From positions 1 to 35,099 of IMG/VR virus record IMGVR_UViG_3300049855_000192: a stretch of 35,099 nucleotides of DNA, one strand, 5' to 3'. Every line of letters starts with the position of its first letter. Within the stretch, counting starts at the first letter, position 1. This document shows, piece by piece, positions 3,546 to 34,981 of this stretch. The position numbers and the translations under genes are program-made. The notes beneath the pieces are model-generated. The model worked only from the letters and a program-made list of their open reading frames with translations. It did no database searches and was not told the DNA's origin. The DNA comes from a virus.

Positions 3546-4244
3546 TCATGGCTCCCTCATCTGCTCCCGTCGTTCCTGTCGTGCCCATTCGAGCGGGTCG
3601 GCTAGGTCCATGGCGAGCACTGCCGCCGTGTGTAGCAGCCTGTCCGCGTCGGGAGCCACGGAGGCAATCGCCGCTGCGTGCAGCACCTGCTCGGCCTGCT
3701 CATCCCGCAGTGGCTCCGTGTCCCGGTCGGGCCTGTCGAGCAGGCGCATGTACTCCACAAACAGCGACTGCACCGCGCGACGGTAGGGCGCTTCATCGGC
3801 CGTAAAATAGCCGGCGTTCTTGAGCGCGTGAACGAACAGCGCCGGATCTCCACTCTCCGCCGCGTGCCAGCTGCTCGAGTACCGGGCGCGCTTGGCCAGG
3901 AATCGCAGGTAGTCCATGGCGCCCGTGTCCAGGTCCATGAACGCTCGGAAATTGGTCTGCGGGTGCGGCGGGTCGAACCACTCGAGCTTGCCGCCGATGA
4001 CCTCGTCGCATCTGAATTGGCAATAGAGGTATTCGTAGCTCTCGCTGGCCTTGACGTTGCCCAGATTGAACCGGTGCATGCTGCGCCACCTGCCGCTCTC
4101 CAGGGCGCTCTGAGCCGTCAGCACCGCGACATGGGCATTGCTCGGGGTGCGACCCAAAAGCGTCTCTAGCCCGCTCCTGATAGACCGCACGACGGCAACC
4201 GGGGCAGCCGGCGTGAGCAGGTCAGGAACGAGCGTCGCCCTCAC
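3546..4244 (-). CDS. Endolysin, glucosaminidase/lysozyme-like
   Basis: A 232-residue protein with one hydrolase domain. 'VLTAQSALESGRW' (about 41-53, Glu49 as candidate acid) followed by 'RFNLGNVKAS' (58-67) is the glucosaminidase/FlgJ-type pattern (ALESGW...NLFGIKA). Later come 'NFRAFMDLDTGAMDYLRFL' and 'ALKNAGYFTADEAPYRRAV', the usual second half of such domains. It should cleave the glycan strands of peptidoglycan at lysis. There is no signal peptide, so it needs a holin, and a holin-like gene lies two genes upstream. I choose GTG at 4244, which overlaps the stop of the lipoprotein gene; a longer frame to 4403 would lie over that gene. The last 60 residues are a helical tail of unknown use. 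Confidence 0.75.
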   Translation of the reverse strand: MRATLVPDLLTPAAPVAVVRSIRSGLETLLGRTPSNAHVAVLTAQSALESGRWRSMHRFNLGNVKASESYEYLYCQFRCDEVIGGKLEWFDPPHPQTNFRAFMDLDTGAMDYLRFLAKRARYSSSWHAAESGDPALFVHALKNAGYFTADEAPYRRAVQSLFVEYMRLLDRPDRDTEPLRDEQAEQVLHAAAIASVAPDADRLLHTAAVLAMDLADPLEWARQERREQMREP

Positions 4245-4447
4245 TTGGCGCACCCATGGAGAACGCCCTGACACCATTCGTCCATGCCCGGCTCCCGCTC
4301 GATGCTCCGGTCGCTCTGGAGCACCAGGCACGCGGCCCGCGCTGAGTCTAGCGCCGTCTGAATGGCGATGTCCCGGCGCTGCTCGGCCGTCGTCGTTGAG
4401 CACGCGCTAAGGCCCAGCAGAGCAAGAGCCAGCGCCACACGATTCAC
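4241..4447 (-). CDS. Small lipoprotein, possible outer-membrane spanin-like protein
   Basis: 68 residues beginning MNRVALALALLGLSACSTTT: a basic N-terminus, a hydrophobic core and a clean lipobox (LSAC), so Cys16 should be lipidated after signal peptidase II cleavage. The mature part is about 53 residues, helical and charged, with three further cysteines. The GTG start overlaps the stop of the holin-like gene and its own stop overlaps the lysin start (GTGA at both). A small lipoprotein inside a lysis cassette is most often the outer-membrane spanin (Rz1-like), but no inner-membrane partner is evident next to it and Rz1 proteins are usually Pro-rich, so the role is an inference. Confidence 0.7.
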   Translation of the reverse strand: MNRVALALALLGLSACSTTTAEQRRDIAIQTALDSARAACLVLQSDRSIEREPGMDEWCQGVLHGCAK

Positions 4448-19772: not shown

Positions 19773-20426
19773 TCAGATACCCTGGATGGCGTTGTCGGAC
19801 GCGATGGAGCCGTTGCTGATGACCAGCAATTCAACGTTTGCCCCAGAAAAGTCAACGTTCGGGGGAGAAGGCTGAACGCCCACAATCTTCCAGGGGAAGG
19901 TGTTGGTCGTGTTGACCGTGGCAATGTCCAGCTTCGGCTTCGCTCGCGTGCCGCCCGCCGCGCCAGTGTTGACGAACCGGCAGTTTGCCCCGATGGCCGT
20001 CTCGTACGTCGCCTGGGTGGTGAACGTCACGATGTCATCCACCTGGATGGCCCAGATGGCGGTATCGGCCGGGATGTAGTAGAGGCGCGACTGGCGGGAA
20101 ATGTTGGTTCCCCAGGCCAAGTCGGACGGGATGCCGGGGCCAGCAGCGGTCATGACGCCCTTCACGGTGTCGTAGTACTGCTTGATGCCGCAACAGATGC
20201 CCAGAATCGTAGTTGAGTCGGTGCCTTCCGATCCGATTGCCAAGGTAACGGAGCCGTCATTCACCTGGAGAAGAGGATCACCGGCTCCCAGGAAGACGTT
20301 CTGAGCGCCAGCGTTCACGTCAAACGACGCAGCCGTGGCAGTCCAGGCCTCACGAATGGTGGGGTTGGCACCACCGTGACGTGACCGGTAGTACCGGAAA
20401 CCATAACGCTCTGCATTGTCAGCCAT
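19773..20426 (-). CDS. Capsid-associated (decoration-type) protein
   Basis: 217 residues, beta-rich, directly before the capsid gene. It has 'FLGAGDPLLQVNDGSVTLAI', 'ILGICCGIKQYYDTVKG', 'YYIPADTAIWAIQVDDIVTF' and a final 'WKIVGVQPSPPNVDFSGANV'. I remember this motif order (GDP...DG...L..GVxxGxxQY...D...VDFSGANV) from conserved phage proteins encoded next to the capsid gene and usually labelled structural. A head decoration or minor capsid role is likely. TGATG overlap with the upstream gene. Confidence 0.6.
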   Translation of the reverse strand: MADNAERYGFRYYRSRHGGANPTIREAWTATAASFDVNAGAQNVFLGAGDPLLQVNDGSVTLAIGSEGTDSTTILGICCGIKQYYDTVKGVMTAAGPGIPSDLAWGTNISRQSRLYYIPADTAIWAIQVDDIVTFTTQATYETAIGANCRFVNTGAAGGTRAKPKLDIATVNTTNTFPWKIVGVQPSPPNVDFSGANVELLVISNGSIASDNAIQGI

Positions 20427-20920
20427 CAGTCTGCTCCCGTGTCGGCCATGGCGATTGAGCCACGCTCGGCTTGAAGGTCGAAATATTCCCCGCCTTGGGC
20501 GGAGCGGAATGCGATGTTGCGAGACAGCTCTGCGATACTCTTCTTGGAGTTGCGCATCTTCTGCTCAACGAGGTCCGCGTGAGCCTGGCCGCCTTGGCCA
20601 TCAACGCCGTTCTCCTCGATCTCCACTGCTCTCTCATGCGAGATGAACATCAGGATGTGGCCCATGGCCTCGATGTACTGGCCGGGCTCCAGGATTTTGC
20701 CGACTCGCGGCTTCACGCCACCCTTGACGAACTGCACAGGCTCGTAGCCCATGGCGTCACGGTAGTAGTCCACACCCATCTCAGCGGCGGCCTTGTAGAC
20801 CCAGACGTACTTCTTCTCCGGGTCCTGATTGACCAGGTCGAAGTAGGGGGAACCCGAGTTGACGGGTTTTGACTTGGGGTCCTTGCGGACGGCTACAGGG
20901 CTCTTCTTCGCTGCAGGCAT
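20426..20920 (-). CDS. Hypothetical protein before capsid genes
   Basis: 164 residues starting MPAAKKSPVAVRKDPKSKPV. The basic head is followed by a mixed fold ('FDLVNQDPEKKYVWVYKAAA', 'VKPRVGKILEPGQYIEAMGH') and a helical C-terminal half ('ADLVEQKMRNSKKSIAELSR'). I choose ATG at 20920 because it has a GGAG ribosome binding site 6 bases upstream; the longer start at 20944 runs into the intergenic region. Probably a morphogenesis or minor head protein by position. I know the 'KKYVWVYKAAAEMGVDYYRD' type sequence from other phages only as uncharacterised protein. Confidence 0.6.
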   Translation of the reverse strand: MPAAKKSPVAVRKDPKSKPVNSGSPYFDLVNQDPEKKYVWVYKAAAEMGVDYYRDAMGYEPVQFVKGGVKPRVGKILEPGQYIEAMGHILMFISHERAVEIEENGVDGQGGQAHADLVEQKMRNSKKSIAELSRNIAFRSAQGGEYFDLQAERGSIAMADTGAD

Positions 20921-21069
20921 GAGTCTCCACTTTGCCAGTTGCAACTTGGCGCGGTTTCCCCGGGAGACTCAGGCCTACAGGTGGGGGCCCTGCGACCGTC
21001 AGGCTTACTCTCCCCGGCGAGAGAGCAACCGGATTCGAGGAGGGTACATTTTGACCCACCCCCAGTCAA
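20921..21069 (-). promoter_or_regulatory. Longest gap in the late region, with a promoter candidate
   Basis: This 149-base stretch without a gene lies between the scaffold gene and the capsid genes, while most other junctions in the region overlap or are only a few bases long. On the minus strand TTGACT (21069-21064) is followed after 17 bases by TACCCT (21046-21041): a good -35 box and a weak -10 box that keeps the three most conserved positions. There is a small hairpin (CTCTC, GCCGGG loop, GAGAG) further on without a T-run. A start here would raise output of capsid over scaffold. It overlaps the 26-base repeat at 21038-21063. Confidence 0.35.
21038..21063 (+). repeat. 26-base repeat shared with 34264-34289 (inverted orientation)
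   Basis: Plus strand here and minus strand at 34289-34264 agree at 22 of 26 bases; the core GGGTAC(A/C)TTTTGACC continuing CACCCC is 21 bases with one difference. This copy is intergenic, the other lies inside a coding region. Both carry the TGACCCA half-site that also makes the palindrome at 34341-34358. Confidence 0.6.
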
Positions 21070-22565: not shown

Positions 22566-22749
22566 GCTCAGCCTCCATGTCGGTGATGATTTCGTTCAGT
22601 TGGTTCAGTGAGCCCCAAGCGGCCCGGATGTTGGGGTCAGGCGACTTCGATGCCGCCCCTATCAAGTAGTCAATGGCCGCCGCCCTCTTCCCCCTGAGGA
22701 CCTTCAAGAACGCTCGCGCGCCGTCCTCGTCCATCCATGTTTCGCTCAC
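22549..22749 (-). CDS. 66-aa hypothetical protein
   Basis: A helical, mildly acidic protein (ARAFLKVLRGKRAAAIDYLI, 'IRAAWGSLNQLNEIITDMEA') with no Cys pairs or membrane segment. GTG at 22749 overlaps the portal stop and the gene end overlaps the next start by 17 bases, so it is coupled on both sides. The pattern 'FLKVLRGKRAAAIDYLIGA...SPDPNIRAAWGSLNQLNEII' looks like a small helical hairpin and is similar in style to many short phage proteins next to the portal. Function unknown. Confidence 0.6.
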   Translation of the reverse strand: MSETWMDEDGARAFLKVLRGKRAAAIDYLIGAASKSPDPNIRAAWGSLNQLNEIITDMEAERGTSD

Positions 22750-25010
22750 GACGGAGGCCCGCTAGGCATGGGCATCGGATGGGGCCCATGCGGCATGCCT
22801 GGGTGGGGAGGACCGGGAGGACCGGGCGGGTGAGCGCCTGGAGGAACCGGTTGACCACCAGGTCCTGGAGGTGGCCCCTGTGGTGCCGGCACGGGGAACG
22901 CCGGCAAGGGCGGAGGGGCTTGCCCTAGAACTTGAACCAGGTCGTAGCGCCCTCGTGCGATGAGGGCTTGCTTCAGAGCTGTGTAGCCGAACAGGGCGTT
23001 CATGGTGAGCGGCGGGATCTGAAGCCACATCTTCACAATCTCGTCCGCCTCCTCGATCTTCTGAGCCTGGGTGGCGAACCTCAAATCAGCTCGAAGGGTG
23101 AAGCGGTAGCCCTTTTCATAGATGGCCCGCCCAATCTTCAGCTCCTCGTACTTCTGGCTCTCGACGTTCAAGAGCCGGACAGTCTCCTCCTCGGGCAGGA
23201 ACACGGAGTTCAGGTAGGCATTGTTCTTGCCAACCTGCACAACCACATCCACGTACTTGCCCGCCACGACGGAGAGTTGCTTGGAGGCTTGCTCGATGCG
23301 CCCCATCAAGCCCTTCGCCGTTTCTCCAGACTTCCCAGCTTCGCCGGAGAGCACATTGGGGCTCTGAATGGAGGTCTGTGCCGTCGTCATGCACATCTCC
23401 ACAATCTCCTTCAGCTGAGGGCTGGCTGGCCCAGGGGTGAGCGGAAGGATGTGGTTCTTCAGGTCCTGACCCACGGCGCCCTTGGCCTTGTGGATCGCCC
23501 CGGGAGAGATGCTCAGGTCTCCGTCTTCAAACTCCAGACCGGACGTGATGTACCCAGGGCAGTTGTTGAGCGTAGCCGTGTCGGTGAACTGTGAGAGCGC
23601 TACGTTCGCAGCCCGGTTCAGGTCGGCCTGGATGCTGCCGTATGAGAGCCCCAGGTTCCCTTGGAGCGGCTCGATGCACACGCCGTGGACGAACAGATGG
23701 ACCGGCTCCCGACGAATGGGATCCGGCTCGATACTCATCGGGTCCGGCATCTCGCCCGTCTCCGGGTCCGGCTGCAAGTGCTCTAGCATCCAATTGGGCG
23801 GCATCGGCGCCTGGGGCGGCGGAGGGAGCTGCGCCCGTAGAGCGTTTGCGTGGTCGCCGCCCTCCTGTCCATTCAGGATACCTGCCTGGATACCGTCGGC
23901 TATTTGCCCAACGGTGCCTTCAATCTGCTGCTCGGCGGCCTGATGCTGGGCCATCATCTCACCGTGCATCATCATGGCCTGGCCAAAGGCTTCCTTCTCT
24001 GCCTGCTGGCTAGCGTACCGCTCCTTGTCCTGCCAGTTGGCACGCTCGTGAATCATCAGACTCAGGATGCACTTGGAATGCTCGTCCTGAATCACCTGAC
24101 ACCAGCGATCCTTGTCCTGGTTGGGCAGACGTAGCCACCCCTCGTACCAGAGCAGGGTGTAGGGGGCCGTCTCGCCGCCCAGCTTCTTGTCGCTATCCGA
24201 AGTCTCGGGCTCGATGCCCTGCGTCTCGGCCACAGCCTCAGCCAGTGGCGAATCGGGATGGTCATCCCACGACGGGGTGGTCTTCTTCAGCACCTTGTCC
24301 ACGTCCGTCCAGTCACCCCGGCGAGCTTCCAACTGGTGCCGATAGAGCCGCAGAATCTTCGTGTAGTGTGGGCAGTCGGAGAAGTCCGGCATCGTCGTCA
24401 CATGCATGAACGGCGTGACGAAGTTGTCGCACGTCAGGACCTCGTGACGGTTCATCCGTGTCTCTTGGTCGTAGTACGAGTGAATCACCACGTCGCCGTG
24501 GGCGAAGAACGCCAGCACGCCACGGTGACCAATCTGCCTCTTGAAGTCCGGTATCTGCTCGCTGAACTGCCAGTTCATGTGCCGGGTGACAAAGCTGGCC
24601 ACGTTCTCGTCGTCCATGCCGATAGGCGTGGCCACTAGGATTGTCTGCCAGTCCCCGAAGACCTCACCCGTTAGCCGGTAGGCCAGGCGAGAGAGGTTCT
24701 CCAGCATTAGCGGCACGTGCGGGTTGGACGAGTCCTTGAAGGCCCCAGTCTTCGGAGGCAGGTCGCCAGCGAAGATTTTCCAGTCGGCCTTCCTGCGGGC
24801 TCGATAGCTCTCCGAAGCATCCCAGTCTGAACGATAGTCAGAGTCCACCTTCTCCGAGATGCGCTTCAGGTACTTCTTGCCCTGCTTGGACTTCTGAAAC
24901 TCCACGACCAGGTTCAGCGAGTCCTCGTCGTACTGAGGAACCATGTCCTCGGGCTTCTCTTCGTCCTTCACATCAACGTCAATGGTCGTGTCTTCGTCTG
25001 AATAGTCCAT
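22746..25010 (-). CDS. Portal protein
   Basis: 754 residues, close to P22 gp1 (725). The N-terminal part has 'YRARRKADWKIFAGDLPPKT', then 'NPHVPLMLENLSRLAYRLTG', 'HRGVLAFFAHGDVVIHSYYD' and, later, 'GNLGLSYGSIQADLNRAANV' and 'SPNVLSGEAGKSGETAKGLM', the latter typical of portal wing/stem regions of large podovirus portals. It forms the 12-subunit channel for DNA packaging and the base of the tail. The last 55 residues are a Pro/Gly-rich tail (GPPPGPGGQPVPPGAHPPGP), unlike P22, whose C-terminal barrel is helical. Location between terminase and scaffold agrees. Start ATG at 25010. Confidence 0.85.
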   Translation of the reverse strand: MDYSDEDTTIDVDVKDEEKPEDMVPQYDEDSLNLVVEFQKSKQGKKYLKRISEKVDSDYRSDWDASESYRARRKADWKIFAGDLPPKTGAFKDSSNPHVPLMLENLSRLAYRLTGEVFGDWQTILVATPIGMDDENVASFVTRHMNWQFSEQIPDFKRQIGHRGVLAFFAHGDVVIHSYYDQETRMNRHEVLTCDNFVTPFMHVTTMPDFSDCPHYTKILRLYRHQLEARRGDWTDVDKVLKKTTPSWDDHPDSPLAEAVAETQGIEPETSDSDKKLGGETAPYTLLWYEGWLRLPNQDKDRWCQVIQDEHSKCILSLMIHERANWQDKERYASQQAEKEAFGQAMMMHGEMMAQHQAAEQQIEGTVGQIADGIQAGILNGQEGGDHANALRAQLPPPPQAPMPPNWMLEHLQPDPETGEMPDPMSIEPDPIRREPVHLFVHGVCIEPLQGNLGLSYGSIQADLNRAANVALSQFTDTATLNNCPGYITSGLEFEDGDLSISPGAIHKAKGAVGQDLKNHILPLTPGPASPQLKEIVEMCMTTAQTSIQSPNVLSGEAGKSGETAKGLMGRIEQASKQLSVVAGKYVDVVVQVGKNNAYLNSVFLPEEETVRLLNVESQKYEELKIGRAIYEKGYRFTLRADLRFATQAQKIEEADEIVKMWLQIPPLTMNALFGYTALKQALIARGRYDLVQVLGQAPPPLPAFPVPAPQGPPPGPGGQPVPPGAHPPGPPGPPHPGMPHGPHPMPMPSGPPS

Positions 25011-25012
25011 GA

Positions 25013-25621
25013 TTATCTTCCAATTCTAGACTGGTTCGCCAACCGAATCAGATATTCCGCAAACAACAGAGGAGATTCGGCGGCCTCCCGACTGCTCAGT
25101 GTGGGCTTATTCCGTAGCTTTCCGCGTTTATCTTGGTGGCCAACCTGGTGCGTGCCTGGATTTCTTGCCCAGAGCGCCTCTTCCGGCCTGGCATGTCCGC
25201 AATAAAACAACCACGTCGCTTTCCTGGCGCGATGGCCGTAAGCCGACTGCCATACCTCACAAACCCATTCCCTTCCTCCGCAATGCGCCCATCCGATTGT
25301 TTTTGGTGTAGGTATGCCATGCGCAGCGAAAGCCATGCTGCCAGCCGGGTGTTCCAAAACCCCACCACATCTGCGCACAGAAGAAAGGGCCGCGGCAAAG
25401 CAACCAGAATCATTGCCCGGGCGATTGTGCTCACCACCCCAACGGGAAAAATTAGCAATCCCCAGTTTACCCCACCGTTGACAAGGAGGATGCGCAACAA
25501 CCGCAGCGTCACCACAAAAAAGCCTCGCATCCCGCTTCTCATCCCAGCAATTCTCGACACCAAGCAGGGCCGGGTATGGGCCAAGCGGATCAATAAATAG
25601 TGCTACCACACCTGTCATCAT
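25013..25621 (-). CDS. C5-cytosine-methyltransferase-like phage protein
   Basis: 202 residues. 'VVAHPPCQRWGKLG' (42-55, Cys47) matches the catalytic PCQ loop (motif IV) of DNA cytosine-C5 methyltransferases, and 'GGVLEHPAG' (86-94) takes the place of motif VI (ENV). The N-terminal SAM-binding motif (FxGxG) is missing or degenerate. This short PPC...LEHP family is, as far as I know, widespread in phages without proven activity. Start ATG at 25621 overlaps the terminase stop (ATGA). It lies between terminase and portal, so it is co-expressed with packaging. It could methylate DNA with help, act on nucleotides, or be inactive. Confidence 0.6.
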   Translation of the reverse strand: MMTGVVALFIDPLGPYPALLGVENCWDEKRDARLFCGDAAVVAHPPCQRWGKLGIANFSRWGGEHNRPGNDSGCFAAALSSVRRCGGVLEHPAGSMAFAAHGIPTPKTIGWAHCGGREWVCEVWQSAYGHRARKATWLFYCGHARPEEALWARNPGTHQVGHQDKRGKLRNKPTLSSREAAESPLLFAEYLIRLANQSRIGR

Positions 25622-27123
25622 CGCCCGGTACCGTAACCCCAATTACCTTTATCCGCCGGACGCTTATCCGGGAAGTCGTCGTCGTCCTCATCCTTCTCAG
25701 ACCAACCAAGGCCCTCTTTGCCGTGGGAAGCGTAAGCACACGAATACAGAACGCTGTCGAATGGATGGTCGTCGTTCCCGTCTGCCGGCTCCTCGGAGTT
25801 CTTGTCCGATGTTTGAATCGCCGGCAGAAGAGTCAGAATCTCTTGGCATGTGTTGAAGAACACAATGCCGGGGGTCGTGGTGCCACCATCGTGGTCCTTG
25901 AGCCGGGAGGTCAGCAGCTCGGCATTGCGCAACCTGGAGCGCTTGTCGGCCTTCACCCAGTACACGCCCTTGTCAGCCATCGCCTGGGCCTTGGACTTCC
26001 CCGTATCTCCGCGCTGCTCCCAGAGCTGGGTGTCCGCAGGGCCGGTGAGCCGAGAAGTCCGGCCCTTGCCCCATCCCAAGCCCTGCTCCACCTGGATGAT
26101 GGCCTCAGCGACCTCCTCATCAGTCATCCCCTGAAACTTCATCTCCCGAACGCAGAAGATGTTCCCATCGTCGTCCATGGCCCACCAATGGACGCAGCCG
26201 GGGAGCTTGAAGCCCCAGTCCATGCTTCTCCACTTGGGCCAGTCGTCTGGTATGTCGAACGGGGCTGTGATGTGTAGCGACTCGTTCCACTCCTCAGCGA
26301 AGAAGCTGCCGGCCGTGATGTACCAGTCTCCCCGGAGAAGCGCTTGCCTGATGTGCGGCTTCGACTTCTGAAGCTGAAGCTCGTAGTCCCTCCGGAACTG
26401 CGGGTTGGGGTTGTCTGACAGCTTTGCCGGCAAGTAGATGTAGGTCCACTTCTCGAAGGTCCCGTCGTCCATCGGGATGCTCTTCTTCAGCGTGACGTTC
26501 CCATTGGGGGCCGGCTTCACAAATCGGTCACGCACCCAGTTGGTGTTCTTGACGCTGAAGTTCTCACCCTTGCGCTTTGACATGAGCGGGTTGCTCATGG
26601 AGCGGATCTTGAGCATCTTCCTCAGGACCGGGTCTGACGAACGTAGACGGGTGTTGATTTGGTCGTACTGTTCCTCTTGGAACTGAATCAGCTCGTCATA
26701 GGCAATATGCGTAAACTCGAAACTGAGGTAGTTTTCCCAGTCGTTGTCATCGTGGCAGTGGGCGAACTGTACCAGGTACCCGGATTTGAACGTGAACGTC
26801 ATCTTGTTCTCGTTCCACTTCACCGCCGGGTCGATAGCGTTGAAAATTCTGTGAGCGCGCTTGATGGTCGGCTCTAACATCGGCCTCGTGCGCCGAAGAT
26901 GGAGCGCCCAGCCCGTCGATGACCCCCATGGGATGTGGAACGGGTTGTTGGGGTTCATGCACCGCTCGTGCTCTACGTAGACCTGCTCCACGGGGTCCAT
27001 CAGAAGCACCAATGACTTACCAGGGCCCGCCGAACCTGCTCCCAAAGCCTCGTTGTGCTTCAGCCGGTGAAACTTGCTGCCCCACGCACTTGGGGCGTAC
27101 AGGTTGGGGACCTCGACGCTCAT
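25618..27123 (-). CDS. Terminase large subunit
   Basis: 501 residues with all hallmarks. Walker A 'GSAGPGKS' (30-37), Walker B 'HIAYDE' (139-144, Asp143 and catalytic Glu144), and the RNase H-type nuclease with 'SMDWGF' (Asp302), 'GPADTQLW' (Asp364) and 'DHPFDSVLYSC' (Asp452/Asp456). It is the motor that cuts concatemers and pumps DNA through the portal. The C-terminal 40 residues are acidic and flexible. No small subunit lies directly upstream, where a methyltransferase and a glycosyltransferase are found instead; the start ATG overlaps the methyltransferase stop. Confidence 0.95.
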   Translation of the reverse strand: MSVEVPNLYAPSAWGSKFHRLKHNEALGAGSAGPGKSLVLLMDPVEQVYVEHERCMNPNNPFHIPWGSSTGWALHLRRTRPMLEPTIKRAHRIFNAIDPAVKWNENKMTFTFKSGYLVQFAHCHDDNDWENYLSFEFTHIAYDELIQFQEEQYDQINTRLRSSDPVLRKMLKIRSMSNPLMSKRKGENFSVKNTNWVRDRFVKPAPNGNVTLKKSIPMDDGTFEKWTYIYLPAKLSDNPNPQFRRDYELQLQKSKPHIRQALLRGDWYITAGSFFAEEWNESLHITAPFDIPDDWPKWRSMDWGFKLPGCVHWWAMDDDGNIFCVREMKFQGMTDEEVAEAIIQVEQGLGWGKGRTSRLTGPADTQLWEQRGDTGKSKAQAMADKGVYWVKADKRSRLRNAELLTSRLKDHDGGTTTPGIVFFNTCQEILTLLPAIQTSDKNSEEPADGNDDHPFDSVLYSCAYASHGKEGLGWSEKDEDDDDFPDKRPADKGNWGYGTGR

Positions 27124-31687: not shown

Positions 31688-32209
31688 CTAGCCGCCTGCT
31701 CCTCCAAGCACCGAAGCGTAAACTCCAAGATGCTCTTCTGCGTCTCCAGCGGGAGCCCGCTCAGTAGGCGCTGAATCCTTGCGGCGACGAGAATGTTTGC
31801 GGGCAGCGAACGGTTTTTCATGTTTCTCCAGGTTTCCAAATGAGCAAGTCATCACCTGGGCGGAGTATCCGAACAGGCCATGCTTCTCCAAGATTCGCTT
31901 GATTCCATTGTGACGGACCACCACCTGGGGGATTTTCCCAAAGATCCGGCACATGTGAATACATTCACCCACAAGGAGGTCCACCGCCTCGTAACGCTGC
32001 CGGAGTGATGCTGTCTCGTTGGTCAGGAGATGCTCAAAAAACAGGAACATGCCTGACGAGTCGTACACCATCACCCCGGCGACCAGGTCTTGACCTTCTG
32101 CCACCATCACAGCAAGCCTGGATGGCCAGGGCTCGTAGCCGAGCTTCCGGTCCTTTGCCAGTTCTTGGTACTTGCTGAGCCAGTCAGCCGTGGCAGATAC
32201 TAGACGCAT
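31688..32209 (-). CDS. GNAT-like acyltransferase fold protein
   Basis: 173 residues. 'LAVMVAEGQDLVAGVMVYDS' followed by 'FLFFEHLLTNETASLRQRYE' then 'AVDLLVGECIHMCRIFGKIP' and 'RHNGIKRILEKHGLFGYSAQ' follow the strand-strand-helix-strand-helix order of GNAT N-acetyltransferases of the phage type; the acetyl-CoA loop (Q/R-x-x-G-x-G/A) is not clear. The last 35 residues are basic then acidic and low complexity. Many phages carry such a protein near the terminase genes; substrates are not known. Confidence 0.5.
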   Translation of the reverse strand: MRLVSATADWLSKYQELAKDRKLGYEPWPSRLAVMVAEGQDLVAGVMVYDSSGMFLFFEHLLTNETASLRQRYEAVDLLVGECIHMCRIFGKIPQVVVRHNGIKRILEKHGLFGYSAQVMTCSFGNLEKHEKPFAARKHSRRRKDSAPTERAPAGDAEEHLGVYASVLGGAGG

Positions 32210-32505
32210 GGCTTGGCGCTGCCGTCCGCTCCATCTGCGACGTTACTTAGGCCTCGGGGAGGCAGGACTTCGTCGATTGTTCGAAAGGGCAGGCCTTGGA
32301 GACCTCTTCGGTACTCCATGGCTTTCGCGGTCAGACGCCAAACGGCTTCTCCGCTATCATTTCGTAATGTTGGCAGAGAAGAAGCCAACCCGGTGGCGAA
32401 AGAACTCACGCTACCAGGCGAACCGTGGCAAAGAGCCCCAAGTTCGGCCTCTAGCTCGGCGTGTAACCGAGCGATTCCGGATTGGTCAGAAGTTGATGTC
32501 ATCAT
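32200..32505 (-). CDS. 101-aa hypothetical protein
   Basis: Starts MMTSTSDQSGIARLHAELEA. Mostly helical, with 'SGEAVWRLTAKAMEYRRGLQ' and 'GLPFRTIDEVLPPRGL' as distinctive parts. I choose the ATG pair at 32505/32502, which has AGCCTGGGGAAG just upstream; a longer frame to 32553 would lie inside the SSB-tip gene without a better site. It ends 10 bases into the next gene. Its direct linkage to the small protein with an SSB-like tip suggests they work in one unit, but nothing in the sequence names a function. Confidence 0.5.
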   Translation of the reverse strand: MMTSTSDQSGIARLHAELEAELGALCHGSPGSVSSFATGLASSLPTLRNDSGEAVWRLTAKAMEYRRGLQGLPFRTIDEVLPPRGLSNVADGADGSAKPCV

Positions 32506-32713
32506 CTTCCCCAGGCTGACGTTCGGCTTGCTTCGGACGCGCGCCGTCCTCATCTGGCGGGAAGATCATAATCTCACGGCCCAGCGGGAGAGCGTCGAGC
32601 ATCACGGACATGCCCCCACGTTCCCTGGGAAATGCGGCACCGATGTTGGTCCAGTACGTCTTGCCCGTTTTTTCGTCCTTGCGAGGCACGCAAACGCGAT
32701 GAGGTTTCGCCAT
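32486..32713 (-). CDS. 75-aa protein with SSB-type acidic C-terminal tip
   Basis: The body (1-55) is a small beta-rich domain: 'KDEKTGKTYWTNIGAAFPRE' and 'MLDALPLGREIMIFPPDEDG'. The end is 'EDDDINF', very close to the tip of bacterial single-stranded DNA-binding protein (DDDIPF in E. coli), the peptide that docks onto RecO, PriA, exonuclease I and other partners. The start is firm: ATG at 32713 with AAGGAGAT 6 bases upstream, the best ribosome binding site of this region. It may be a minimal single-stranded DNA-binding protein or a mimic of the SSB tip. The body is too short for a classical OB fold of SSB size. Confidence 0.6.
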   Translation of the reverse strand: MAKPHRVCVPRKDEKTGKTYWTNIGAAFPRERGGMSVMLDALPLGREIMIFPPDEDGARPKQAERQPGEDDDINF

Positions 32714-32844
32714 TCAATCTCCTTCGAATATCGACCACAACACAGCCGTAGCAATTGAAGTCAGGGCCTACCGTAAGGCCGCACATCAAGCATCTCGGCT
32801 CCATGAGTCACGCTTGGCACCATGCCACAACGTGCCATCCGTGT

Positions 32845-33027
32845 CTACTTAACTGAGCCTTCAAGCTCCTTGTCTTCTCTCTTTTTCAACTCATCCAGGG
32901 GCACCCACTGCTCACCGTTGAGCGTGGCGACTAGGACACGGGGGCGCTTGCGCCCTTCACTGCGCGGGAGCTTCAAAAGCACTGCGGCTGTGCCATCAGC
33001 GAGCACCACGGGGTCACCGATGTCCAT
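32845..33027 (-). CDS. 60-aa SH3-like small protein
   Basis: Starts MDIGDPVVLADGTAAVLLKL and continues to 'RPRVLVATLNGEQWVPLDEL', a five-strand pattern (GDxVxLxDGxxAxVL...VLVxxxxGEQxWVxxxEL) like small SH3/KOW-type barrels; the last 15 residues are charged (KKREDKELEGSVK). I choose ATG at 33027, which overlaps the upstream gene's end by 14 bases; the longer frame to 33180 lies fully within that gene. It closes the chain of tiny coupled genes. Function unknown. Confidence 0.55.
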   Translation of the reverse strand: MDIGDPVVLADGTAAVLLKLPRSEGRKRPRVLVATLNGEQWVPLDELKKREDKELEGSVK

Positions 33028-33202
33028 CGATGTCTTTCCAGTGTGTGGGGTACACGATGTGTCCCGTGGTCTCAGAGATCCAGATGTCGTGTCCGGACGT
33101 GACGAGTGAGGCCTTGTCTTTCCAGTCTGGGATGTTCTCGTCCTTGACCCAGACAGTCTCTCCTCTCTCAGGAGGGTCAATCACGCGCCTCCACCCGGTC
33201 AC
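33014..33202 (-). CDS. 62-aa small protein
   Basis: Starts MTGWRRVIDPPERGETVWVK. Beta-prone (RGETVWVKDENIPDWKDKAS, 'HDIWISETTGHIVYPTHWKD') with a Trp/His-rich end. The GTG at 33202 overlaps the upstream stop (GTGA) and GGGAG lies 8 bases before it, so I prefer it to GTG at 33223, which lies inside the previous gene. The last 14 bases overlap the SH3-like gene. No family recognised. Confidence 0.55.
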   Translation of the reverse strand: MTGWRRVIDPPERGETVWVKDENIPDWKDKASLVTSGHDIWISETTGHIVYPTHWKDIDGHR

Positions 33203-33339
33203 GGCTTGGCTCCCAGATCGCACCCTTCACACTTGCAGTCGTCAGGGTGAACCTTGTCGATGTACCAGAACAGTGAGATGGCACGGAACGTCCTGGCCCT
33301 CACGCGGAAGCTCTTAGGGAACCTGTCTAGGTAGCTCAT
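33199..33339 (-). CDS. 46-aa mini-protein with CxCxxC motif
   Basis: Starts MSYLDRFPKSFRVRARTFRA and ends 'HPDDCKCEGCDLGAKP'. The first 33 residues form a basic amphipathic helix with an aromatic patch (ISLFWYIDKV), and the end has a CxCxxC cluster that could bind a metal. Both ends overlap neighbours: ATGA with the gene before and GTGA with the gene after. AAGG lies about 8 bases upstream of the ATG. Conserved coupling on both sides is the main reason to call it. Confidence 0.55.
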   Translation of the reverse strand: MSYLDRFPKSFRVRARTFRAISLFWYIDKVHPDDCKCEGCDLGAKP

Positions 33340-33515
33340 GCTGGCCTTTCCACCTTTTCAACCCTCGTACAGCACCACTCCTCCAGCCGAACATCGGAGA
33401 TCATCTCCTGTCGAGAAAGCTCGTTGGCCATGGGACGGGCGTGCTCCATGGGCAGCGGGCCGACCCTACGCGGCACCCCGCCGGAGACATACGACACAAA
33501 CGCCACAGTGGTCAT
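33336..33515 (-). CDS. 59-aa mini-protein
   Basis: Starts MTTVAFVSYVSGGVPRRVGP, then 'PMEHARPMANELSRQEMISD' and an end with a Trp-Cys-Cys (EEWCCTRVEKVERPA). The start overlaps the zinc-ribbon stop and its stop overlaps the 46-aa gene, both as ATGA. No domain recognised. Its reality rests on the exact stop/start overlaps and unbroken frame. Confidence 0.55.
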   Translation of the reverse strand: MTTVAFVSYVSGGVPRRVGPLPMEHARPMANELSRQEMISDVRLEEWCCTRVEKVERPA

Positions 33516-33688
33516 TGCACCCTGTGGGAGACGACAGACCTAGTCCTCTCCATAGCTTGCCCCCAGAGAGGCCCAACCCAGAGCATTTCCCAGGTACAGC
33601 CCGAGCACTTGCCAACTGGCAGTTTCACCAGGTGAGCTGCGCCACACCTGGGGCAAAATTGTACCTTCCCGTCTCCGGTGACGTTCAT
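33512..33688 (-). CDS. 58-aa zinc-ribbon protein
   Basis: Starts MNVTGDGKVQFCPRCGAAHL, with a second pair in 'GKCSGCTWEML': CPRC-x14-CSGC, a standard zinc ribbon. Beyond that the end is 'QAMERTRSVVSHRVQ'. I choose ATG at 33688, which overlaps the lysozyme stop as ATGA and has GAGAGG upstream; the longer frame to 33883 lies inside the lysozyme gene. It may be a transcription-associated or DNA-binding ribbon, but no partner is evident. Confidence 0.65.
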   Translation of the reverse strand: MNVTGDGKVQFCPRCGAAHLVKLPVGKCSGCTWEMLWVGPLWGQAMERTRSVVSHRVQ

Positions 33689-34149
33689 TTGAGCCTCTCG
33701 TAGGTAGAAATTCGAGCCTGTAGCCCAGGCCACGACGAATCGCCGCACCTTCGGCCGGCGTAGGCGTTGAGGGTGCCCTGTAGCCAGGGGACTCCGGACC
33801 TCGCACAGGTCCAGTAGGCGCGCTTGAGCTGCTCGGAGGCCAGCTTGGCTTGAAGCTCTAGGTCGCCGTCCTGTTTGGACCACTGCTCCCGGTTCAGGGC
33901 GTTGGCGTGTATCTGCCAGAGGCCCCGAGCCTTGCCCCGGTCACACTCCAGCGGCTTACACCGGCCGTCGGCGATCCTCTGGGAGAGCCGCGACTCATTC
34001 TCGGCGACCGCCAGCAGCAGCCGCGACCACTCGTGAGGGCTTCTAGGGGAATGAGCTGCCTCCCCCGTAACAGCCTCGGCCAGCCGTTCGGTATCCACGG
34101 TGCCTTGGCGTTGTCCGATGAGCAGCAGCAGCGCGGTCAGTAGTTTCAT
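33685..34149 (-). CDS. Lytic transglycosylase (SLT-like) with N-terminal hydrophobic signal
   Basis: 154 residues. 'MKLLTALLLLIGQ' is a short hydrophobic N-terminus (signal or anchor). Then 'LLLAVAENESRLSQRI' (44-59; the Glu-Ser at 52-53 is the usual catalytic pair of SLT lysozymes), 'RGKARGLWQIHANA' (71-84, compare G-L-x-Q-I/M) and 'GTLNAYAGRRCG' (125-136, compare AYNAG). Four Cys, at 64, 69, 115 and 135, could form disulfides outside the cytoplasm. It should cut peptidoglycan glycan strands. Because it lies far from the main lysis genes, it may act at entry, or serve as a second or early lysin; the 30-aa membrane peptide before it overlaps its start (ATGA). Confidence 0.75.
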   Translation of the reverse strand: MKLLTALLLLIGQRQGTVDTERLAEAVTGEAAHSPRSPHEWSRLLLAVAENESRLSQRIADGRCKPLECDRGKARGLWQIHANALNREQWSKQDGDLELQAKLASEQLKRAYWTCARSGVPWLQGTLNAYAGRRCGDSSWPGLQARISTYERLK

Positions 34150-34238
34150 GGGTTCGTCCAGTACACGACAGAGATCAGCATCCCAAGCGACAGTGCCAGG
34201 ATTAAAGCCCAGGCAGCCTCCAGGTCGTAGTCAGTCAC
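34146..34238 (-). CDS. 30-aa single-pass membrane peptide
   Basis: The peptide MTDYDLEAAWALILALSLGM continues LISVVYWTNP: one transmembrane helix of about 20 residues with an acidic N-terminus. GTG at 34238 overlaps the upstream stop (GTGA) and uses GGGAGG about 7 bases upstream; the stop overlaps the lysozyme start (ATGA). Such a tiny membrane peptide directly before a lysozyme could be a pinholin-like or accessory lysis peptide, or one that helps the hydrophobic lysozyme N-terminus leave the membrane. No homologue known to me. Confidence 0.55.
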   Translation of the reverse strand: MTDYDLEAAWALILALSLGMLISVVYWTNP

Positions 34239-34537
34239 GGCGGGTCCTCCCAGTCGTCCTTGCGGGGTGGGTCAAAAGGTACCCCCTCCTTTTTCCTATA
34301 AAATTCGACCTTGCCTACATCAGCGTCGGGGTCGTACCCCTGGGTCAGATTTGACCCATCCACAGACACCGGGTGAACCCCGACCTTCTTCTGAGCAGCT
34401 AATAGGGCAGCGCGTGCTCTATCGGCTCGGGACTCCCCTTCTTCCAAGACGCGGGCGAGCTTTTGGCGACGGGCCAGGATGACCTCCGCCTCCTCCAGCG
34501 TCAGGCCGTGGGCGTCAGCGAACTCCTGGGAGGTCAC
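34235..34537 (-). CDS. 100-aa coiled-coil protein
   Basis: Starts MTSQEFADAHGLTLEEAEVI, then a charged coiled coil (RQKLARVLEEGESRADRARA) and a flexible Pro/Asp-rich end (FDPPRKDDWEDPP). The beginning (ADAHGLTLEEAEVIL) could be a degenerate helix-turn-helix. GTG at 34537 overlaps the upstream stop (GTGA). The second half of the gene carries both the 26-base repeat and the TGGGTCA palindrome, so its DNA may have a second job. Function unknown. Confidence 0.6.
   Translation of the reverse strand: MTSQEFADAHGLTLEEAEVILARRQKLARVLEEGESRADRARAALLAAQKKVGVHPVSVDGSNLTQGYDPDADVGKVEFYRKKEGVPFDPPRKDDWEDPP
34264..34289 (-). repeat. 26-base repeat shared with 21038-21063
   Basis: Minus strand here matches plus strand at 21038-21063 at 22 of 26 bases. 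This copy codes for EGVPFDPP-type residues of the 100-aa protein. Directly beside it on the plus strand is an AT-rich patch (TATAAAAT at 34297-34304), unusual in this GC-rich window. Confidence 0.6.
34341..34358. promoter_or_regulatory. Operator-like palindrome TGGGTCA-GATT-TGACCCA
   Basis: A perfect 7-base inverted repeat with a 4-base centre, 52 bases from the 26-base repeat. The same TGGGTCA half-site occurs in both copies of that repeat, next to a GTACCC in each case and here (GTACCCC just to the left). It looks like a dimeric protein binding site, though it lies within a coding region. Confidence 0.4.
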
Positions 34538-34812
34538 TTTTCACCCCTAACCCAGTCAGCAGCCTTAGCTCGCGCCTCGTCGGCGGTTTTGCCTGTAAAC
34601 TTTGGCCTCCCTGGTCGTGGTCCACTTGTAAACACGGTCCACTCACCCAGGGCGTTGAGGAAACAGTCCCAACGGCCACCCTCATCCAACGTCCTCACAT
34701 CAGCTAGGGCCCTCAAGGCGTCACGTAGTTCGTCGGTGCCACTGGGTTCTGAAAAGCTACCCTGCTCAGTGGCGTGGTCCAGCAGGTTTTCGAGTGCCTC
34801 GTCAGTATCCAT
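34534..34812 (-). CDS. 92-aa hypothetical protein
   Basis: Acidic N-terminal half (MDTDEALENLLDHATEQGSF, 'DELRDALRALADVRTLDEGG') and a beta-alpha C-terminal half ('FLNALGEWTVFTSGPRPGRP', 'FTGKTADEARAKAADWVRGE'). The C-terminal part has the look of the small 'tGkT.dEAr..AA.w' domain found in many phage and bacterial proteins of unknown use, related in style to HicB-like or Phage-ABA-like folds. ATG at 34812 overlaps the end of the regulator by 11 bases. Confidence 0.6.
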   Translation of the reverse strand: MDTDEALENLLDHATEQGSFSEPSGTDELRDALRALADVRTLDEGGRWDCFLNALGEWTVFTSGPRPGRPKFTGKTADEARAKAADWVRGEK

Positions 34813-34981
34813 CTGCCCCGTCCTTCTGCCCCTGGGCGATAGGCTCGTGGTCTTGCAGCAGGTAGAAGGCCCGCTTCAGCACAGCGTTGACCTTCATGTC
34901 CTTTGCAGAAGCATACGTATGAAGCTGGTCTACAAAAACCTCGCTAAAGTTGAGGGTTACCTTCCTGTCTTTATGGGACAT
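34802..34981 (-). CDS. Ribbon-helix-helix regulator
   Basis: 59 residues starting MSHKDRKVTLNFSEVFVDQL. 'RKVTLNFSEVFVDQLHTYAS' is the DNA-contacting strand and helix A of an Arc/CopG-type ribbon-helix-helix; 'KDMKVNAVLKRAFYLLQ' is helix B. The end is charged and flexible. I choose ATG at 34981; a longer frame to 35020 would run through the likely operator. It is the first gene of the long leftward unit and so well placed to control it, or to repress itself. Two similar GCAATT-type sites lie just upstream. Confidence 0.65.
   Translation of the reverse strand: MSHKDRKVTLNFSEVFVDQLHTYASAKDMKVNAVLKRAFYLLQDHEPIAQGQKDGADGY

Follow-up and report, generated by a model that had tools for sequence, protein, structure and literature searches.

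According to PMC10666635, overlaps of 4 bases are by far the commonest short junction and the genes joined in this way are tightly coupled, and among the longer overlaps those of 8, 11 and 14 bases belong to the commoner phase. The pairs treated there as coupled by termination-reinitiation carry ATGA or GTGA overlaps of 4 bases, as does the chain of small genes analyzed here; that coupling, however, concerns gene pairs, whereas our chain has nine successive junctions, at which coupling would be predicted. Chains of 8-10 ORFs joined by exactly 4 bases are likewise present in other small-gene arrays of tailed phages (e.g., loci L013, L018, L080 and L128). Compared with these arrays, the window (the whole stretch of DNA that was analyzed, a viral record 35,099 bases long) has a gene content of its own, and relatives of three of its products, p100, p59 and p60, were found only in two contigs, L005 and L006.

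The window carries packaging and tail genes of phage type on its minus strand, among them the gene for the terminase large subunit (25618-27123) and that for a putative portal protein (22746-25010), which was recognized by a weak match to phrog_1216 (E 1e-5). Head-closure and tail-spike-like proteins are also encoded, and an endolysin-like gene is located at 3546-4403 (Glucosaminidase PF01832, E 2.3e-8; phrog_3513, endolysin). The terminase was less than 60% identical to every one of the 842 matching phage records, and the putative portal protein matched none of 50,697 phage records; hence, this lineage appears to be poorly sampled. The DNA of the chain region found nothing in the phage records, and a terminase profile search of genome contigs was also negative, so that no host or prophage was found. 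Searches with the terminase, a 173-aa protein and p60 yielded few relatives; only L006 covers the whole chain, and L005 covers only its last part. An Rfam search of the window returned a single chance-level match, distant from the chain.

Layout and coding evidence of the chain

A preliminary description of this region had reported a chain of seven tiny genes with stop/start overlaps. The seven ORFs, of 30, 154, 58, 59, 46, 62 and 60 codons, were indeed present in that order on the minus strand, and the overlaps between them were as claimed, five of 4 bases (ATGA or GTGA) and one of 14 bases. Six of the sizes (30, 46, 58, 59, 60 and 62) fit this description, but the remaining member encodes 154 aa and is not tiny. 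The seven ORFs are linked as reported, but the chain extends beyond them: three further ORFs of 100, 92 and 59 aa lie upstream and are joined on by overlaps of 4, 4 and 11 bases, which makes ten ORFs in all. All nine junctions among the ten ORFs, which are on the same strand, are therefore overlaps, seven of exactly 4 bases, one of 11 and one of 14.

The coding potential of each ORF was scored by codon log-odds, with eleven long genes of the window as the training set and P being relative to non-coding frames. The first ORF of the chain (59 aa, 34802-34981, minus strand) had a score of 0 of 5000, taken with one extra codon, and overlaps by 11 bases the 92-aa ORF p92 (34534-34812, minus strand; P 0.0224), which in turn overlaps the next ORF by 4 bases. 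Then follow, all on the minus strand, p100 (100 aa, 34235-34537; 0 of 5000), p30 (30 aa, GTG start, 34146-34238; P 0.0014), p154 (154 aa, ATG start, 33685-34149; P 0.0010), p58 (58 aa, ATG start, 33512-33688; P 0.30), p59 (59 aa, ATG start, 33336-33515; P 0.093), the CxxC-containing p46 (46 aa, ATG start, 33199-33339; P 0.0206), p62 (62 aa, GTG start, 33014-33202; P 0.0044) and p60 (60 aa, ATG start, 32845-33027; P 0.0136), with which the chain ends. Codon support was only modest for p92, p46 and p60. The first ORF resembles ribbon-helix-helix proteins by eye only, and family searches with it (one of them with a 60-codon version) gave no match. The weakest-supported gene of the chain is p58. 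Its support comes mainly from the 4-base overlaps at both of its ends, to which a candidate zinc ribbon can be added: p58 is possibly a four-cysteine zinc ribbon (CPRCG...CSGC), for which the matches were sub-threshold. A weak codon score does not disprove a gene, because p59, whose score is also weak, has a homologue in L006.

The layout was then compared with 200 first-order Markov sequences per setting, which had the dinucleotide make-up of the window. When ORFs of at least 30 aa were joined by overlaps of exactly 4 bases, the longest chain contained 8 ORFs in the window and 6, reached once, in the 200 simulated sequences; with overlaps of 1-14 bases allowed, the values were 10 in the window and at most 7, reached in 2 of the 200. 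Since no simulation produced the whole chain, its layout is not attributable to chance. On the opposite strand of the window, the longest chains were of 2 (exactly 4 bases) and 5 ORFs (1-14 bases). Another chain of ten ORFs, joined by overlaps of 1-14 bases, spans 31964 to 25013 and runs through the packaging genes. In a rough gene call of the whole window, 21 of the 41 same-strand junctions overlapped, 10 of them by 4 bases, and these counts are too low, because the caller missed p58 and p59 and began p62 late. Overlapping junctions thus seem to be the house style of this genome. Exact 4-base chains of at least 8 ORFs were also found in 13 of the 256 other strands of the fetched viral loci (three of the 13 being copies of one chain, with nine duplicate or window-derived loci excluded beforehand). 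The layout of the chain is common in such viruses and is ordinary as a kind. The proposal that small, easily missed genes are arranged here in an operon with stop/start overlaps was supported.

Backbone and cargo genes in two related contigs

The gene order in L006 consists of a 65-aa helix-turn-helix protein, ORFs of 52 and 59 aa, the homologue of p100, ORFs of 107 aa (with a hydrophobic C-terminus) and 67 aa, and the homologues of p59, p60 and p75, the last of which is the next gene downstream of the chain in the window. The p100 homologue (L006 977-1306) showed 47% identity (E 5.6e-16) and that of p59 (L006 1857-2030) 51% identity over 47 residues (E 7.4e-12), and p60 had homologues in both contigs (L005 108-284, 60%; L006 2027-2203, 57%). 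When p60 was searched for in three more distant relatives, nothing was found. The substitutions between p59 and its L006 homologue were distributed 20/14/29 over the three codon positions, and an excess at the third position was observed in 7 of the 7 pairs examined for p100, p59, p60 and p75. By these comparisons p100, p59 and p60, and likewise p75 after the chain, were shown to be conserved protein genes, and the clear homologues in a related contig bear out the earlier assignment of p59 and p60 as genes. The backbone genes p100, p59 and p60 add three families of small conserved phage proteins, from a lineage whose putative portal is unmatched in 50,697 phage records.

The situation was different for the other members, which we term cargo. 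No counterpart of p30, p154, p58, p46 or p62 was detected in L006 by tblastn at an E limit of 0.5, and unrelated small genes are located there where the window has its cargo genes. In a shuffled-alignment comparison of the cargo with L006, 2 of 42 pairs exceeded a z of 2.5, both of them short and unconvincing. Our searches found no homologue of p30, p46 or p62, and the best tblastn match of p92 in the fetched loci had an E of 0.7. The order of the chain, which had been called strict, is therefore kept for the shared genes p100, p59, p60 and p75, but its content is not. The exchange of cargo is drawn from two comparisons and could partly be a matter of gain or loss.

The junctions of the backbone genes were examined in the same contigs. 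In both the window and L006, p100 has overlaps of 4 bases at its two ends with unrelated neighbours, which in L006 are the 59-aa ORF before it and the 107-aa ORF after it. The L006 homologue of p59 is preceded by the 67-aa ORF with a 4-base overlap, and p60 follows directly after p59 with GTGA. In L005, a different gene occupies the place of p62 and ends 14 bases inside p60, exactly as in the window. Both p62 and this L005 gene, which are unrelated and have the 14-base overlap in common, end in '...GHR', because the first bases of p60 are conserved. The start of each backbone gene holds the stop of the gene upstream (TTGA/GTGA for p100, ATGA/GTGA for p59 and, for p60, a TGA at its bases 12-14). 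We tentatively suggest, as a possibility about which we have more doubt than confidence, that the overlap junctions might serve as docking sites at which unrelated cargo is swapped between fixed backbone genes without losing the coupling. The clearest trace of this reading is the 14-base overlap with which p62 and the unrelated L005 gene both run into p60. As an arrangement the chain is common, and what the two comparisons add is how small cargo genes may be swapped within a probably coupled operon.

Proposed translational coupling and alternative readings of the chain

The Shine-Dalgarno-like energies at the starts of the chain were compared with those at 1000 ATG/GTG triplets taken at any site of the same strand, which had a median of -3.5 kcal/mol. 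The strongest match of the chain was that of p30 (-10.2 kcal/mol), followed by p92 (-8.4), p46 (-7.2), and p100 and p62 (-6.5 each); the starts of p58 (-5.8), p59 (-3.9), p60 (-3.3) and p154 (-3.0) were weaker. Some genes of the chain probably start independently and others rely on the preceding gene. In addition, a gap of 30 bases and an overlap of 20 bases each occur once in the L006 series, which indicates that the coupling is not uniform. A search for a promoter at the proposed operon start gave no match, and the predicted terminators were not above chance.

We consider it likely that the region is an accessory operon from a tailed phage, that its genes are coupled in translation and that its cargo is exchangeable. 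The polycistronic operon would start near 34981 and proceed leftwards through the ten mostly small ORFs, and ribosomes that end one gene would reinitiate at the start that overlaps it, the genes being translated jointly in this way. Those of p154, p59 and p60, the starts that show little Shine-Dalgarno sequence, would rely most on reinitiation. At each junction the overlapping letters would be part of the start that belongs to the downstream gene (ATGA or GTGA; for p60, the TGA at its bases 12-14), and hence a new gene could be inserted upstream and still end within that start, the cargo being swapped and the coupling retained. The functions of the cargo appear to be mixed, one gene probably encoding a peptidoglycan-cleaving transglycosylase, and we found no evidence of the cargo acting as one set.

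This reading takes the ORFs as translated, and part of the chain, p58 above all and perhaps p46 or p92, could instead be untranslated, with frames that GC-rich DNA leaves open by chance. For DNA of this composition, the probability that one given frame stays open over 57 codons is 0.13, the codon score of p58 is typical of non-coding frames, and homologues were not found for p58, p46 or p92. Nevertheless, these open frames also meet stop/start overlaps at both ends, within a chain that the simulations never reached as a whole, and p59, which is likewise weak in codon use, is shown to be real by its homologue; we regard untranslated members as unlikely. The preliminary description had proposed a possible set of host-takeover peptides made in fixed ratio, that is, small proteins that would jointly disable host functions. 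Small, poorly conserved genes of phages often take such roles, and p60, the member earlier described as SH3-like, lends itself to this proposal. An SH3-like barrel is indeed predicted for p60: its AlphaFold2 model (pLDDT 79.6) has four strands at least three residues long, compared with about five strands in a small barrel of this kind, and resembles the SH3-like small barrels of the Tudor, KOW and CAP-Gly types. Its best structural matches were Tudor, KOW and RNA-polymerase-binding barrels, including domains of Mfd and CarD. Domains of this type in Mfd and CarD bind RNA polymerase. These matches, however, are at the level of fold class only, with a Foldseek E of 0.037 or worse and a best Z of 7.7 over ~50 residues, which falls short of what the tool counts as a clear match, and the p60 sequence matched no SH3-like barrel family, so that p60 is predicted to be a small SH3-like barrel as a fold class and nothing more specific. 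Moreover, no chain member had a family match to known takeover proteins, inhibitors or toxins, the gene content differs between related phages, and one member, p154, looks like a transglycosylase. The PADLOC anti-phage defence models, when run against the ten chain ORFs, returned only AbiEi with the first, 59-aa ORF (E 0.038), which falls short of the model. One fixed ratio is also spoken against by the Shine-Dalgarno energies, since these vary widely and some starts have strong ribosome-binding sequences of their own. A takeover set thus appears quite improbable.

A narrower reading would confine a common function to p30 and p154, as a small wall-piercing unit of a membrane peptide and a transglycosylase for lysis or entry, with the rest of the chain unrelated to it. 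The two genes adjoin with a 4-base overlap, and p30 probably has one membrane span (best 19-residue Kyte-Doolittle mean 2.17). Residues 39-113 of p154 matched the Transglycosylase SLT family PF01464 (E 3.9e-4), with a score of 20.4 bits that is 0.9 below the curated cut-off of 21.3, and p154 contains ES...GLWQ, which we take to be the motif of SLT transglycosylases; hence, p154 is probably a lytic transglycosylase of this type. In lambda and P22 the lysis genes also lie just before the terminase genes. This pairing is weakened, however, by the separate endolysin-like gene at 3546-4403, which lies beside small hydrophobic ORFs, by the SLT score below the cut-off, and by the absence of a p154 relative from this region of L006. 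Compared with the members of PF01464, p154 is short and had no close relative: searches of viral contigs, phages, the ten related records and genome contigs found nothing. Its single-sequence model was all helical and too poor for use (pLDDT 49.7), and among PDB sequences the sole hit was a designed helical barrel (E 0.029), which was not accepted as a match. We consider such a unit very unlikely, and the coupled operon with exchangeable cargo remains the reading that we favour.

The region downstream of the chain and other features of the window

Shortly after the stop of p60, a 12-base sequence, CACGTTGTGGCA, is located at 32823-32834 on the minus strand; L005 and L006 have it unchanged at the corresponding position, and the window contains one exact copy. 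The next gene, p75 (32486-32713, minus strand), lies 131 bases from the chain and has its own ribosome-binding site, with a Shine-Dalgarno energy of -8.8 kcal/mol. It matched phrog_18187 (E 1.3e-4), is 60% identical in L005 and L006, where the order is kept, and had matches in 39 viral loci, and none in the phage records. A minus-strand ORF, p117 (32200-32553), was considered as the next gene and set aside, as its codon score is non-coding-like and the conserved frame is on the opposite strand. That antisense ORF (MAWRCRPLHLRRYLGLG..., 32208-32519, plus strand) lies in the gap that separates p75 from the gene for the 173-aa protein, and the start codons of this gene and of the antisense ORF are both within one CATG. 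Its first ~70 codons are conserved at the corresponding site of both L005 and L006, and the differences from L006 were distributed 29/16/48 by codon position. No Pfam match was found for it, and an antisense ORF of L093 was ruled out as a relative (z -0.1).

A structured RNA was observed at 20918-21036 on the minus strand, directly before a 164-aa gene (20426-20920), and it is conserved in L003, L004, L005 and L091. In the five sequences, 9 of 35 pairs were changed on both sides, a number that 0 of 500 shuffles reached, although the pair count leans towards the structure, because the prediction came from this alignment as well; all six slid controls were lower. The GAGTCTCC/GGAGACTC stem ends at the ATG. 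The RNA had no Rfam match, and a model built from the five sequences, including the window, recovered no copy but that of the window from the 17 sources searched, the other four sequences being outside these sources. The antisense gene and this RNA are possibly more interesting than the chain.

An inverted repeat, GGGTCANNNNTGACCC, is present as exact copies in the window (34342-34357), in L006 (302-317) and in L091 (6843-6858), and with 2 mismatches at 34269-34284 and 21042-21057 of the window. Copies with no more than 2 mismatches numbered 7 in the window versus 1.85 expected, and 1 of 100 shuffles had as many. A role of these repeats as operators of the operon was set aside, the window's exact copy being inside p100.

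Other differences from the relatives were observed among the packaging genes. A 209-aa protein is encoded between terminase and portal (25013-25642; phrog_12600, E 1.5e-52). It matched 515 viral contigs, and most of the 80 that were kept were without this terminase; it is absent between the terminase and portal matches of L003, L004, L005 and L091, where the gap is ~15-55 bases. The segment 27120-30567, between a 132-aa gene and the terminase, encodes a 720-aa protein together with proteins of 319 and 193 aa (glycosyltransferase-/methyltransferase-like). In L004, L005 and L006, the matches to the 132-aa gene and the terminase are only ~265-470 bases apart, and this segment is likely an exchanged block. 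Finally, the terminase ORF of L006 (5152-7563) encodes 803 aa and the window version 501 aa. Two weak matches at residues 448-760 of the L006 protein, to Hint (E 3.5e-5) and to intein splicing (E 7.5e-5), were each below the cut-off, and the L006 terminase probably contains an intein that is absent from the version of the window.
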